A stretch of DNA of 40,826 nucleotides, from positions 1-40,826 of the IMG/VR virus record IMGVR_UViG_3300035181_000676; one strand, written 5' to 3'. Within the stretch, counting starts at the first letter, position 1. Each line of letters begins with the position of its first letter. Positions 385-40,826 of this stretch are shown piece after piece. The position numbers and the translations under genes were made by a program. This stretch comes from a virus. The notes under the pieces were generated by a model. The model saw only the letters and a list, made by a program, of their open reading frames with translations. It did not search any database and was not told the DNA's origin.

Positions 385-464
385 ATATTTGGTTAACATA
401 ATATTCTTAAGAGGATAACCTCGTGATATATTTCAATATAATAAATATTATGTTAACCAAATAT
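385..464. repeat. Perfect 21-bp inverted repeat with 38-nt centre
   Basis: The arms 385-405 and 444-464 are perfect reverse complements containing the palindromic core GGTTAAC. The 38-nt centre holds a smaller dyad, GAGG-ATAA-CCTC (411-422). It could form a cruciform or a long RNA hairpin, or be a paired binding site. No T-tract follows, so a terminator is unlikely. Confidence 0.85.
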
Positions 465-498
465 GATATAATCGTGGGTATGTGAGAAGGGATTTCGT

Positions 499-572
499 TA
501 TGTCTAAAAAGATATAACGCTTTTTTCATTTAGGTTTATGTCTAAAAAGATATAACGCTTTTTTTCATTTAG
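499..572 (+). repeat. Tandem 35-bp repeat, terminator-like, with repeated MSKKI mini-ORF
   Basis: Two copies (499-533 and 537-572) differ by one extra T. In the first copy CGTTAT (496-501) can pair with ATAACG (514-519), followed by C and six Ts, which resembles a weak rightward intrinsic terminator. Each copy also holds ATG-TCT-AAA-AAG-ATA-TAA, a five-codon reading frame. I do not claim it is translated. Confidence 0.6.
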
Positions 573-578
573 TACGTG

Positions 579-766
579 CCTATCACCACGCTATCATGAG
601 ACTATCACCACGCTATCATGAGATTATCACCACGCTATCATGAGATTATCACCACGCTATCATGAGACTATCACCACGCTATCATGAGATTATCACCACG
701 CTATCATGAGATTATCACCACGCTATCATGAGACTATCACCACGCTATCATGATATTATCACCGTG
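579..766. repeat. 22-bp iteron array built of 11-bp half-units
   Basis: Eight 22-bp units (579-754) and a partial ninth run head to tail with no spacers. The unit is [AC][CT]TATCACCACGCTATCATGAG. Each unit is two 11-bp halves, so TATCA recurs every 11 bp from 581 to 757, giving 17 copies on one face of the helix. The base before TATCA changes in a C,T,T pattern, giving a 66-bp higher-order period. Such arrays are typical of iteron origins, but no known Rep protein is visible. Confidence 0.9.
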
Positions 767-873
767 CGTTTATAGACGGCCTAATCGCCGCAAGGCCGAG
801 ACAGAATAAAAGGCTTAAATGATTGGCTACGGATAGGCGATGGGGGACTTTGGTGTGCGGCGGGATGGGGGAA

Positions 874-897
874 AGCATAAAAATTATATATTATGCT
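874..897. repeat. Small hairpin AGCATAA/TTATGCT
   Basis: A 7-bp inverted repeat (874-880 and 891-897) with a 10-nt A/T loop overlaps the first copy of the 47-bp direct repeat. It lies downstream of the leftward gene ending at 1002, so it might end or stabilise that transcript. The evidence is only the symmetry. Confidence 0.35.
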
Positions 898-971
898 AAA
901 AACCTAAACTCTTAATTCTAACTTAAAAAATTATATATTATGCTAAAAACCTAAACTCTTAATTCTAACTT
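879..971. repeat. Direct repeat of 46 bp, two copies at 47-bp period
   Basis: Bases 879-924 and 926-971 are identical and contain TTATGCTAAAAACCTAAACT. They lie between the iteron array and the leftward gene at 1002-1541. The exact identity suggests a recent duplication or selection on paired sites. Confidence 0.9.
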
Positions 972-1001
972 GAATTAGTTACAACGAATACCGCCGACAA
1001 A

Positions 1002-1541
1002 CTATTCATATCTCCACGCATCTCTAACGATCTTATACTCTCTATTGCCTCTTATCTTCTCCTTACGTGGAGCACGATAACCACGATAGGGTATTTCGCA
1101 ACAATAAAGTGCCCTCATACTTTGATCTTTTGCCTCATCAAGAAACATATCGATCATCATATTACTAAAAGCAAATACGTGCTTTCGAGTAAAGCGTATT
1201 CTAACTCTAACTTCAACTCCGGAATACACATACCATGATCTCATCATGCTTCTGATTATATTTAGAAACGCATCATATAACAAATTGCTCATTTCCCCAC
1301 CAAATTGATTGAGATTATTATCTGATATACCATATGCATAAATCGCTATCGCTTTACGACATAAATTATGAGTATTTCCATATCGGTTCATGTACCATAA
1401 CATCTGTTCTTGGTATGGTGTATGTAGGGAAAAGAAATCAAATACAGCCTTTTGTAGCTGTGGACTTGTCTTTTTTGGGATAAATCCCAATGCACGTAAA
1501 TCATCTATTTTAGGTGACATATAGTTTTTAAACTTTTTCAT
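1002..1541 (-). CDS. Hypothetical basic protein beside the iteron region
   Basis: This 179-residue protein is not recognised. It is rich in Lys/Arg and aromatic residues (for example RVRIRFTRKH near residues 111-120) and ends in a charged tail, so it could bind nucleic acid. It is the only leftward gene between the repeat region and the divergent late operon, and its transcript would run into the iterons. No good ribosome-binding site precedes the ATG, so the start is uncertain. Its position makes a replication-initiator or control role conceivable, but no Rep motif is visible. Confidence 0.7.
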   Translation of the reverse strand: MKKFKNYMSPKIDDLRALGFIPKKTSPQLQKAVFDFFSLHTPYQEQMLWYMNRYGNTHNLCRKAIAIYAYGISDNNLNQFGGEMSNLLYDAFLNIIRSMMRSWYVYSGVEVRVRIRFTRKHVFAFSNMMIDMFLDEAKDQSMRALYCCEIPYRGYRAPRKEKIRGNREYKIVRDAWRYE

Positions 1542-32907: not shown

Positions 32908-35250
32908 TTATAGTTCATCGATATCAAGATTGGCAAATTCGTTTAGAATTTGTTGTTCTTCATCGAGGGTATAAGGTTTAAGTGTAAGTCGATAATAGCG
33001 GTGAACTTTATCACCTAATCGAACTCGTTGCTCATCACCGACTAAAAAGTTTGATAACTTTTCTGCGTACTTGTTATGGTCAATACCGGATAACTCCGAT
33101 AAAAGATCCAGTGCCAATTTATAAACATCGCCCTTACGCTTTGAGAAATACTCCCCATTGCGATGGAGATAATCTCCGACTTCATTATCACGAGCATTGT
33201 TTTTAATCTCCACAATGATGTGCTCTGATATCCCATAAAGAAACTCATCCAAGTCATTGTTTGTCGGAAGTCTATACTTCGCTTGTAGTTCATGAAGTTC
33301 TAATTGAGTACCATTGCCGTTTACTGTTTCAATAAAAACTTTACGGAGATATGACGCAATTACAGCACTGTATTTAGTCCTGTCTGCTTTAAATAACTCA
33401 CCGCTCGTAACTGAGTGTTGCATTTCGGTTTCAGTCAACTCAATCTGTAAAAATCGATTATAAAGCTCGTCAGAGTTATTCCGAGTTGCCGCCTTATGGG
33501 TAGAGGTTAAGATAGTAAAAAGCAGGGGTAGTACTTGAGTACCATAACTTCCGAACTGATCTATCTGTATCTCTTTGTCCATATCTTTGATCTCTTGCTC
33601 AAGTGCGCTGTTCGTTTCGTCTATGAGCAATAAACCGGTTTTCTTGATACCTTTGATGATATCAGCCCCGACACCCTTGTCACCACGTAGTGCGTTTAAA
33701 AGTCGCTTCATGGTGATCTTTTGAAAGTTAAGATGTGAAGCGATTTCACTCTTACCTGTGTTTGACGGAGCGACCAACATCAATCGATTTAACTTTGTTT
33801 CTTTGAACTTGATCGATAAGGCGATCAGTTTAACTATGTCTATTACTTTACCATTCCAAACCCCCTCACAAAATTCTTTCACAATATCATCATCAATCTC
33901 ACCGACATAGAAGTTGTTAATTGGGTTTTTCCACACAGTTAGAAAATTGAACTTAGATTCTTCACTGCTCTCCAATGAGAAACTGACGATTGACTCAGCC
34001 GTGTAATCCAACTTATGACGGATATCGCCGATCGAAGTGGTTGCATTTACAACCCTCTCCAATTCTTTGATATAGCCATTATTCATCAAGTGTTTTTTAA
34101 CACTTGATATATTTAGATCCTCTTCTATGATCGATCCAATTTGAAGCACATAGCTATTGCCCTTGAGATAAAGTTTTACATCATCCGGAGCTTCTGTCTT
34201 GATATCAGGTGTATAACTCACAGACTTAGACCACATGACACCACGTTTACGACCATAAAAATCTTTACCCATATCTTTCTCAATAATCTCATCAGCCAAC
34301 TTTTGACGGTTTTCTTTTGATATTTTTGATTTTGATATTTCAAGAGCGATCTCTTCTAACTCTTTGGTACTTTTAGCCGAGTTGATCTTTGCTTTGAATA
34401 CCGAGTTGTCTTTTTTGTTTACCATCCCGATAATCTTTTTGTAAAAATCAGGAGCTTCCGCCACACTCATATGGTATTTCTCAGCGATCTCGTCCTCAGT
34501 AGCTGAGTAGCGTTTAGCTTTCTGCGACCATTCAATAGCAATCTCAAGTCCTTCATCTCCTCCGAGATCCCATGAGTTAAGTGCCATGATGACTTGTTGC
34601 CATCCCCCCTCATAACTCATATCCGGATCAAGATTCTCAAGGAACTCAAGCAGTTCCTCTTTAGGGGTTCGGGTCATGTAATGCTCATCAGCATCAATAC
34701 CCCCGTATTCATTGCCTCGTACAAATTCTTTTCTTAACTCAAATAAACCTCCATCACTTTCAAGTGTAATTTTTCCCGATATAAAGTACTCATCGATAGG
34801 ATCATCGAATGAATACTCCCCGTAACCTTCTATGAACTGACCCCCACACATAACCCACTCCCGACCGTGACATTGGAAATCGATATCCGGATAGCGGGGT
34901 TGAGATTTTGCCAATTTCACCCCATCGTTAATACGTAGGTAAACGTGCCCTCCTCCGGATGGGGTAGTTACAACATTGTCGAGATTTTTATTGAGATCCT
35001 CACGAAGTTTAGTAAGCGACTTATCGCCAACTTTACCTTTTTTGGTATCCCAATCTACAACAACGATATCCGAAGGGGGAACCCCTCCATAGATTTTTGT
35101 AGGATCATAGTCACATGACGGTGAGTTCATATCATTCCACCCTCTTGGTGTTGAATATTTACCCTTTACCCCGTTGCCATCTTTAGCAACATAAAGTGCA
35201 AATAATTTCCACCCATCAGAACGGTATGCATCGTAGATATGCTTTTCCAT
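32908..35250 (-). CDS. Bifunctional prim-pol / SF3-type helicase
   Basis: The 780 residues span three parts. The N-terminal prim-pol domain (about 1-180) has DWD (66-68) and SGGGH (His102). A PriCT-2-like linker follows (about 203-270, ELLEFLENLDPDMSYEGGWQ). The C-terminal ATPase has Walker A APSNTGKS near 490-500 and Walker B LLLIDE near 540. It should prime and unwind the genome and is the likely initiator-loading helicase. It is the first gene after the control region at 35251-35770, with GAGG five bases before the ATG. Confidence 0.88.
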   Translation of the reverse strand: MEKHIYDAYRSDGWKLFALYVAKDGNGVKGKYSTPRGWNDMNSPSCDYDPTKIYGGVPPSDIVVVDWDTKKGKVGDKSLTKLREDLNKNLDNVVTTPSGGGHVYLRINDGVKLAKSQPRYPDIDFQCHGREWVMCGGQFIEGYGEYSFDDPIDEYFISGKITLESDGGLFELRKEFVRGNEYGGIDADEHYMTRTPKEELLEFLENLDPDMSYEGGWQQVIMALNSWDLGGDEGLEIAIEWSQKAKRYSATEDEIAEKYHMSVAEAPDFYKKIIGMVNKKDNSVFKAKINSAKSTKELEEIALEISKSKISKENRQKLADEIIEKDMGKDFYGRKRGVMWSKSVSYTPDIKTEAPDDVKLYLKGNSYVLQIGSIIEEDLNISSVKKHLMNNGYIKELERVVNATTSIGDIRHKLDYTAESIVSFSLESSEESKFNFLTVWKNPINNFYVGEIDDDIVKEFCEGVWNGKVIDIVKLIALSIKFKETKLNRLMLVAPSNTGKSEIASHLNFQKITMKRLLNALRGDKGVGADIIKGIKKTGLLLIDETNSALEQEIKDMDKEIQIDQFGSYGTQVLPLLFTILTSTHKAATRNNSDELYNRFLQIELTETEMQHSVTSGELFKADRTKYSAVIASYLRKVFIETVNGNGTQLELHELQAKYRLPTNNDLDEFLYGISEHIIVEIKNNARDNEVGDYLHRNGEYFSKRKGDVYKLALDLLSELSGIDHNKYAEKLSNFLVGDEQRVRLGDKVHRYYRLTLKPYTLDEEQQILNEFANLDIDEL

Positions 35251-35435: not shown

Positions 35436-35464
35436 CAAATTGACTACACTGCTGTACACGCCAA

Positions 35465-35486
35465 AAAGCCCTAAAAATAGGGCTTT
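35465..35486 (-). terminator. Intrinsic terminator of the upstream leftward block
   Basis: TAGGGCTTT and AAAGCCCTA form a perfect 9-bp stem around four bases. On the minus strand the stem runs directly into a T-run, followed by GG, which is the classic form. It should stop transcription coming from 35771-39777 before the replication promoter. On the plus strand TATTTTTTATT follows after a few bases, so it may work both ways. Confidence 0.85.
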
Positions 35487-35543
35487 ATAAGGCTATTTTT
35501 TATTTGTGTACAAGTAGTCAATATATAAATAGATTGTAGAAAT

Positions 35544-35577
35544 AAAAAAAATAATTTGTATAAAAATTATTTTTTTT
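35544..35577. repeat. A8/T8 inverted repeat, 14-bp arms
   Basis: Bases 35544-35557 and 35564-35577 are perfect reverse complements, beginning with eight As and ending with eight Ts around a 6-nt centre. It is all A/T. It may act as a second bidirectional terminator or an easily melted site. Confidence 0.75.
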
Positions 35578-35770
35578 CTATAAAGGGTACAATGATTTTG
35601 ACTTGTACACGTGTACACAACCAAAACCACTTCAAACTCCCACGGTACCGTGCTTTGCCGTCATATTGAACTCTAATAGTCTGTGTACAACGATTAAGGT
35701 TTTCGACTTTTTATGAGTAATTATCGGTCGATTTACCCCATTTGCTAATTTAAGGTTATCTTTATATTCA

Positions 35771-35874: not shown

Positions 35875-36843
35875 TTAGTCCTTAATTTCTTTTTCATCAG
35901 GTAATAAATTTAATAACCATGATTTATGTTTGCTCCACCATTCTAATGCACCATTATCCATCTCTTTTATTCTTTCATCATTAAAGCTCCTCCAATTCTC
36001 GATAGTATGTTTTTGACAACCGATTTTAAGCATTGATCCCCAACGGTGAATGTTATATTTAAGTCCACTTATAAAAATTAAAGCGGAGCCTTTATGGTTG
36101 AAAGATTCGATCCATTTACTGGCTTCGATACATGAACCCGCTTCGATCCATTCCCCTGCTTTGATCCATTTATCGGAGTTTATCCATCCACCAGATTCAA
36201 TCCACTCACCGGCTTCGATCCATTCACTGGCTTCTATTGATCCACCGGCTTCTATTGATCCACCGGCTTCGATCCATCTACCGACTTTGATCCGTTCACT
36301 GGAGTTGATCCATCCCCCTGCTTTGATTGACCCGTTAGATTCTATCGATCCCCCTGCTTTGATATATCTATCAGCTTTGATCGATCCTTTGGCTTTGATC
36401 GAGCCACTGGATTCAATCCATTCACCAGAGCTTATCCATCTTCCGGCTTCGATTGATCCGTCAACTTTGATGTATCTATCGGATTTGATTGATCCGCCGG
36501 TTTTGATATACCCATCGACCTCGATTGATCCGCCAGAATTAATTGATCTATCGGCTTCGATCCATTTACTGGAGCTTATCCATCCACCAGCTTCAATCGA
36601 GTCACCAGATTTGATCGATCTACAACCTTCGATTGATCCACCAGATTGGATCGATTCACTAACTTCTATTGACTCATTGGCTTCTATCCATCCACCGGCT
36701 TTGATTGTTCCCTCAACGTATAAACATTTGTCAAGTGAAAAATTGATGGAAAAATCAAAAGTTATTGATCCTTCATACACATAACGGTCATTTTCATTGA
36801 TTAGACCTTCGTAATCTTTATCTACTATTAATACATTTTCCAT
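35875..36843 (-). CDS. Hexapeptide-repeat (beta-solenoid) protein
   Basis: Of 322 residues, 45-248 are 34 uninterrupted six-residue units of the form x-[SWY]-I-[EKNS]-[ASV]-[GSD], for example GSIEAG, RWISSG, EWIEAG. Ile is at position 3 in every unit, which predicts a regular solenoid or filament-like fold. The N-terminal 44 residues and the Trp/Lys-rich C-terminal 74 residues (KSWLLNLLPDEKE) are unique and may cap it. The register differs from the classic left-handed helix. GAGG lies 9 nt before the ATG. The function is unknown. Confidence 0.8.
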   Translation of the reverse strand: MENVLIVDKDYEGLINENDRYVYEGSITFDFSINFSLDKCLYVEGTIKAGGWIEANESIEVSESIQSGGSIEGCRSIKSGDSIEAGGWISSSKWIEADRSINSGGSIEVDGYIKTGGSIKSDRYIKVDGSIEAGRWISSGEWIESSGSIKAKGSIKADRYIKAGGSIESNGSIKAGGWINSSERIKVGRWIEAGGSIEAGGSIEASEWIEAGEWIESGGWINSDKWIKAGEWIEAGSCIEASKWIESFNHKGSALIFISGLKYNIHRWGSMLKIGCQKHTIENWRSFNDERIKEMDNGALEWWSKHKSWLLNLLPDEKEIKD

Positions 36844-39835: not shown

Positions 39836-40092
39836 AAGTATTGTAGTGGTAATGCAACGGTTAAATATTTCCCGTGCATAGCTACAATAGTTTTTAATTT
39901 TAGGGTGTATATTCGCTCCACCCGCCTAAAATTTTCGTGTACTATTTCCCACGCCTCTCATGTTCAGCCTATACCCTTGAGAGGATTTATTAACAATAAA
40001 TTTTCAATTATCATGATAGTTGAGTTACTATCAAAACATCATTACATCATTTTTTATTAATTTGCCACTGCATTTATAAAAAATAAGATTAA

Positions 40093-40184: not shown

Positions 40185-40202
40185 CCGCTCTTTAAAGAGC
40201 GG
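40185..40202 (-). terminator. 18-bp palindrome at the stop of the 177-aa gene
   Basis: CCGCTCTTTAAAGAGCGG is a perfect palindrome that includes the stop codon. Together with the larger stem at 40128-40172 it would block leftward transcription. It could also be a dimer site. Confidence 0.5.
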
Positions 40203-40725
40203 TTACCATTAAATTAATTTCGGCCTTACTTAAGCCTAATCCCTTGAGAGTATCAAATTTTGTTTTTAACCCTCTTTCTAAGATAAGCTTATTTGCTCGA
40301 TCATGTTTATAGTTAGTTATCACCTCTTTAACCTCACTTAAATATTCTTCCCCCTCGTCCTCTTTAACGTCAATATCCATTAACGAGTTCACCGTGCTTT
40401 TTTGAACAGAGCATAGATTTTCCGCTTGAGATAGCGTTAGTAATTCCTTACGAATTACATATCCGTCAACGAGCAATTTTTTAGCAAGTGTAACGGCCCG
40501 TTTAGTAAATGGATCAGAGTTTATTTTTTCGTCTGCGAGTAATTTAGTGAGCACCCATTTTTGAGCTAATCTTTTATTAGCAAAACTGATGTGACTTGCT
40601 TTTGCTTCGGAAATAATAAGTGCAATTATTTCGTTTATTACTGTCGCTCTAACGTCTTTAATCTTTTGAGCGTTAGCCGTCATTGTGAGGAGTTTATCAT
40701 TAAGTGCATTTAATACTGTTTTCAT
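40192..40725 (-). CDS. Putative autoregulated DNA-binding protein next to the origin region
   Basis: This 177-residue protein is helical and Lys-rich. Residues 100-117 (LSQAENLCSVQKSTVNSL) have helix-turn-helix spacing, but the match is modest. On the circular map its upstream DNA is 83-256, with two promoter candidates and an operator over one of them. A second like operator lies downstream, so self-control is plausible. It is the gene nearest to the repeats on this side and may control replication. Its first 27 codons lie in the terminal repeat. AAAGG lies upstream at a poor distance. Confidence 0.7.
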   Translation of the reverse strand: MKTVLNALNDKLLTMTANAQKIKDVRATVINEIIALIISEAKASHISFANKRLAQKWVLTKLLADEKINSDPFTKRAVTLAKKLLVDGYVIRKELLTLSQAENLCSVQKSTVNSLMDIDVKEDEGEEYLSEVKEVITNYKHDRANKLILERGLKTKFDTLKGLGLSKAEINLMVTAL

Positions 40726-40826
40726 TTTTTAGCCTTTTTGCCTTTTATTGCGATCGCATTGCCGCCGGTTGGATGATTAAGTCATCGACTTGGTTTCTAT
40801 GGTGTTATTATCTCACAACTTGGAAT
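40644..40826. repeat. Right copy of the 183-bp terminal direct repeat
   Basis: This is the second copy of the terminal repeat, ending exactly at the last base of the window. Here the coding part (40644-40725) is continuous with the full 177-codon gene, so this copy carries the intact gene start. In the left copy the same gene is cut after 27 codons. Confidence 0.95.

Follow-up and report, generated by a model that had tools for sequence, protein, structure and literature searches.

A fast-changing 22-bp repeat array between two conserved non-coding blocks in an uncultivated podovirus lineage, a candidate docking site in an origin-like or early-control region

The window analyzed here is the whole 40,826-nucleotide stretch of the viral record IMGVR_UViG_3300035181_000676. 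Its two ends share 183 bp (1–183 and 40644–40826) with one mismatch (position 56, G/A), and it is therefore probably a complete phage genome, circularised or end-repeated; the shared segment could be a genuine terminal repeat, or else an overlap left by assembly that involves a variant. Virion and lysis matches comprise a portal, scaffold, major capsid protein, T7-like tail tube B, terminase, holin and endolysin, and the replication set includes a DNA polymerase (phrog_1252), a DUF2800/PD-(D/E)XK exonuclease, an Enc34-type single-strand binding protein, an SNF2/DEAD helicase and a MoxR-type AAA protein. The repeat array that is the subject of this work lies between two conserved non-coding blocks (B1 and B2), in the gap that separates genes A and B, together with the following features:

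40192–40725, minus strand: gene A, encoding a basic, all-helical protein of 177 aa; conserved and adjoining the gap
288–362, no strand: AT-rich tracts, two copies of AAAAATAATAAATTTTCTTTACTTGCGATAATG
382–467, no strand: 24-bp inverted repeat (96%) around GGTTAACATAATATT, adjoining B2
464–483, plus strand: block B2, TGATATAATCGTGGGTATGT, with a family consensus of about TATNATCRTGTGYGAG; from a leave-one-out matrix, recovered in held-out relatives
498–572, plus strand: 38-bp direct repeat, two copies, the first of which has a hairpin and T run like those of a terminator
580–767, no strand: the array, eight 22-bp units (TATCACCACGC followed by TATCATGAGAY) and one half unit
836–925, plus strand: block B1, degenerate in the window, GGCGATGGGGG ... 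CTTAATTCTAACTTA; includes CTTAA repeated at 11 bp, with a TATAAT-like box after it
879–972, plus strand: 47-bp direct repeat, two copies, duplicating the CTTAA/promoter-like part of B1
1002–1541, minus strand: gene B, the right border of the gap, with divergent homologues in relatives

The array consists of eight full copies of TATCACCACGCTATCATGAGAY (22 bp) and a closing half unit, TATCACCGTGC. The word TATCA starts at 581, 592, 603 and so on to 757, giving 17 occurrences in steps of exactly 11 bp, so that the positions, the identity at fixed lags and Tandem Repeats Finder (period 22, 8.3 copies, 96% matches) all bear out the tandem arrangement described in the sequence-only reading. Self-identity is 0.96 at a lag of 22 and 0.98 at a lag of 66, and the periodicity is the strongest within the whole window, with a z of 14.7 against a maximum of 5.1 in dinucleotide shuffles of the gap. 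No open reading frame of at least 25 aa covers the repeats; the array is non-coding, and the gap around it is origin- or control-like. A role at the RNA level was considered and dropped, as folding of either strand was no better than that of shuffles. The exact unit had no match in the viral contigs searched, and the DNA of the gap had none among phages and plasmids.

All eight full units are identical to TATCACCACGCTATCATGAGAT except for the last base, which is C in units 1, 4 and 7, and for one base in unit 8. The last bases thus read C,T,T,C,T,T,C,T, and the bases preceding TATCACC are C followed by this same series, whereas the base preceding TATCATG is always C; the C,T,T order claimed for the whole array therefore holds only in front of TATCACC. 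Given three C among eight units, 2 of 56 possible orders have a period of three. The 66-bp order is thus mild evidence, and looks like the pattern expected from duplication of a three-unit block. The division of each unit into 11-bp halves is likewise real in a narrower sense than first proposed. The two 11-mers agree at 7 or 6 of 11 positions (P 0.006–0.015 at lag 11), and for a shared run of five between them, with all lags from 5 to 11 allowed, P is 0.16. Since the 22-bp unit was copied afterwards, the half-period amounts to a single 11-mer comparison, a single event then multiplied eightfold with the unit. The final full unit has TGATAT at its end and contains a perfect 10-bp palindrome, TATCATGATA, which occurs twice in the genome, at 746–755 and in non-coding DNA to the left of gene A (40009–40018).

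Relatives were collected from viral contigs with DNA polymerase, MoxR and portal queries. Named phages are about 30–34% identical in the portal protein, and a homologue of protein A has no match among 50,697 phage records, so that, as far as these collections show, the phage and its relatives form an uncultivated podovirus lineage. Two scans of genome contigs found neither a host nor a prophage; the DnaA-type boxes described below and the CTTAA repeats would allow a guess at a host in the Campylobacterota, which we do not claim. The relatives share a conserved cassette, which runs DUF7192, MoxR, gene A, gap, gene B, portal. B1 is present in all 14 loci (12 distinct) in which genes A and B were both found, and additionally in G002, L057 and L059. 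This strongly conserved, non-coding block reads GGCTATGGGGKAAAT...TGGGGTGGATACCCA...ATTTCCC...CTTAA-N6-CTTAA...TATAAT in the window and in the gaps of relatives, and it has neither an Rfam match nor a supported RNA structure. The B2 model was built by visual inspection of 11 sequences and evaluated by leaving out each in turn; the left-out sequences score above shuffles (L048 only marginally), and B2 was also recovered in L034, L057, L059, L061, L064 and L082, none of which had been used in building the matrix. It is weak in G003 and absent in G002 and L077. In L034, L057, L059, L061 and L082, where tblastn missed gene A or the contig did not contain it, the gap was taken to extend 1.0–1.2 kb leftward from gene B. 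In L031 several tRNA-like sequences were spotted by eye in the part of the gap between B1 and gene B.

The interval between B2 and B1 was then measured in the 18 loci with both blocks, using 300 shuffles for each. It ranges from 133 to 351 bp, and arrays beyond all 300 shuffles were obtained for the window (22 bp) and for G001, G004, L036 and L037 (8 bp), with weaker ones in L064 (17 bp, P 0.013) and L061 (P 0.04). Nothing in the interval is clear as an array in the remaining 11 of the 18 loci, which goes part of the way toward the refuting outcome named in advance, that close relatives replicate without the array. Arrays are also present in the gaps of G002 (8/16/32 bp) and G003 (30 bp), where one of the two blocks is not clearly recognised. 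The repeat units differ among relatives in both sequence and period and are unrelated, and with periods of 8, 17 or 30 bp, or no array at all, spacing by one helical turn is not conserved in the lineage. The prediction of variable copy number did hold. Two SNPs separate L036 from L037 across about 900 bp of flank, yet the arrays have been rearranged to a net difference of 50 bp.

These observations could be explained without any bound protein if the region between B2 and B1 were a length-tolerant spacer that gains short arrays by slippage and block duplication, i.e., a neutral or near-neutral satellite. The many loci with no clear array, the unrelated units, the variable interval length and the rapid change between L036 and L037 would all be expected under this explanation, as would a 66-bp order of the kind that block duplication gives. 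It has more difficulty with the fact that arrays recur in the same interval across several separate lineages, and that an 8-bp period is shared by G001, G002, G004 and L036/L037 although their octamers differ. With the clustered boxes described next also counting against it, we consider a satellite unlikely, though an alternative to be taken seriously. The 8-bp arrays, built from unrelated octamers in separate relatives, have a period that corresponds to no helical turn.

Four relatives have DnaA-type boxes, TTATTCACA, clustered in the gap, in or beside the interval that holds the array in the window. The gaps of L031, L034, L057 and L061 contain 4–6 copies each, against 0, 0, 3 and 0 copies outside the gap in the respective loci, with clustering P values of 3.7e-4, 2.3e-7, 5.7e-4 and 5.1e-5. 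Some of the boxes (all four of them in L057) are not between the blocks but immediately to the left of B2, and neighboring boxes on the same strand are often 11–12 or 20–21 bp apart. TTATTCACA fits TTWTNCACA of E. coli as well as the consensuses for epsilonproteobacteria (PMC5043019), and in this respect the four gaps are like the DnaA-box clusters of bacterial origins. The window differs, as its gap contains no DnaA boxes and the array units do not fit the DnaA-box consensuses.

Comparison with other known systems places the geometry of the array on familiar ground. The iterons of R6K and pPS10 are also 22 bp long (PMC4980987), and like the array these origins have near-identical 22-bp direct repeats beside AT-rich DNA; the array differs from them in its 17 half-sites and in being missing from many relatives, and PHROG and Pfam scans of the window proteins gave no Rep-family initiator. 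Sites at every helical turn, taken at first to line up bound proteins as a continuous filament, have precedents. ParR of plasmid R1 requires two 11-bp repeats (PMC9426499), and ParR/parC repeats are bound as a superhelix (PMC9426499, PMC5016525); HP1043, of the OmpR/PhoB family, binds direct repeats centered 11 bp apart on one face (PMC5253667). The one-turn geometry is therefore not new, and the array looks like a changeable docking strip rather than a new kind of filament. The array shares with parC of R1 and its relatives 10–11-bp direct repeats, one per turn, and the equal 11-bp spacing (PMC9426499) would suit a centromere-like partition site. This interpretation is nevertheless very improbable, as the array sits in a phage control gap and no ParR, ribbon-helix-helix, ParA or ParM family is present among the window proteins scanned. 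The presence of virion genes and the lack of an integrase match also give no sign of plasmid-like maintenance. With HP1043 sites the array shares direct repeats centered 11 bp apart, but the HP1043 word is TTTAAG, in paired sites (PMC5253667), whereas the word of the array is TATCA, 17 times over; CTTAA repeats are found in B1 instead.

The statement that no initiator gene is present proved to be wrong. The window encodes an initiator-type candidate 5 kb from the gap, with an upstream region of its own that carries a different motif cluster:

32908–35250, minus strand: replication protein with Prim-Pol, PriCT-2 and P-loop (Walker A)
35453–35689, no strand: region R1, upstream of the Prim-Pol gene, with six GTGTACA/TGTACAC motifs on both strands

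The Prim-Pol and PriCT-2 domains were matched and the Walker A motif was identified by eye. For an SF3-type helicase domain there was, beyond this motif, no Pfam helicase match above the cut-off, and the C-terminus of the AlphaFold model was left unused since the model is poor (pLDDT 49). The six motifs in R1, against four elsewhere in the window, surround an AT-rich tract and a GGGCTTT hairpin. The equivalent gap holds 6–11 words of the GGTAGTAA type in G001, G003, L032 and L036/L037, GTGGTCA seven times in L057, GTAGTCA five times in L038 and CGGTTCA five times in G004; clusters of this kind, each with a phage-specific motif of 7–8 bp on both strands around an AT-rich tract and a hairpin, lie at L022:2320–2600, L026:11150–11570 and L028:19150–19420. 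The type of motif tracks the type of Prim-Pol protein, and the cluster is absent from G002 and L039, which have the other type of helicase half. In G002 (L025, 26332–28719) the different helicase half and the loss of the cluster give the appearance of a module swap, and L039 is similar. Prim-Pol/helicase replicons such as pRN1 (ORF904) and phage BIP-1 are comparable in the domains they encode, and their proposed origin is a stem-loop downstream of the gene (PMC4234260), whereas the R1 cluster is upstream and has a word different from that of the array. Judged by these motif clusters, R1 is likely an origin candidate, and a better one than the array gap for the Prim-Pol protein.

As in P4 alpha, the binding sites of an initiator are expected beside its own gene. 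The cluster at the Prim-Pol gene thus weakens the case for the array as the site of the phage's own initiator, and the two regions may divide the work, with R1 as the origin bound by the Prim-Pol/P-loop protein and the array as a regulator-bound set of operator or activator sites between divergent promoters. We regard this division as unlikely on the whole but credible. R1 is favored by the both-strand clusters that precede the Prim-Pol gene in the window, G001, G003, G004, L032, L036, L038 and L057 and by their co-variation with the protein, and the 11-bp CTTAA repeat of B1 followed by a TATAAT-like box has the layout of the OmpR/PhoB family, e.g., HP1043 (PMC5253667). R1 and the gap could, however, both be origins, 17 half-sites are many for an operator, and a promoter scan was no better than shuffles. 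A GC-skew minimum near the gap was rejected as evidence for an origin because the skew follows gene orientation and gives no independent support.

The interpretation we favor, to which we would give about even credence, is that a lineage-specific set of direct-repeat binding sites, numerous and fast to change, serves here as a docking array within an origin-like or early-control region. We infer that the repeats would be bound cooperatively by a host factor or a phage protein, and that the bound copies could either open the nearby AT-rich DNA (288–362 and 877–941, of which the former is a possible unwinding element) or control promoters in the gap, with a role in replication or in transcription control. 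In some relatives the same spot is occupied by DnaA-type boxes, partly 11–12 bp apart, and in others by 8-bp repeats, and array copies would expand and shrink through block duplication, leaving the 66-bp order behind. The strongest support comes from the four relatives with DnaA-type boxes in or beside the array interval. The conserved cassette and gap, the retention of B1 and B2, the arrays beyond all shuffles in five loci, the array change between L036 and L037 and the AT-rich tracts to the left of B2 are also in favor, while the absence of a clear array from 11 of 18 loci, the unrelated units, the poor fit of the window's units to DnaA-box consensuses and the separate motif cluster at the initiator-type gene weigh against it. 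As to what might bind, protein A is a possible and reasonable first candidate; it has no family match and its fold search gave none, and the product of gene B has no family match either. Ribbon-helix-helix binders, sought for the 8- and 11-bp geometries, were not found in the window, and a weak, sub-threshold CopG/NikA-like match was seen only in relative L058.

A more specific version, which we think improbable but worth stating, is that there is one conserved control region in which the docking array has been swapped repeatedly between fixed blocks, among DnaA-type boxes, 8-bp arrays and 11/22-bp arrays, so that related phages change their initiator or regulator, the 11-bp array of the window being suited to a filament-forming binder, possibly protein A. 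The replacement of an array by other types of site between fixed blocks within one phage lineage is in itself unusual. If the array is indeed a docking strip, the lineage would offer a ready-made comparison set, its members carrying DnaA-type boxes, 8-bp repeats, 11-bp repeats or none at one control site, and changes in the spacing and identity of sites could be tested against a control region that stays put. For this uncultivated phage lineage, the primase-linked motif clusters of R1 predict an origin in a form that is open to direct testing.

Repeats are also found in coding DNA of the window. The gene at 35875–36843 on the minus strand contains 18/36-bp repeats at 36106–36672, and its product, which has a FapA beta-solenoid match, is probably an early-region repeat protein.
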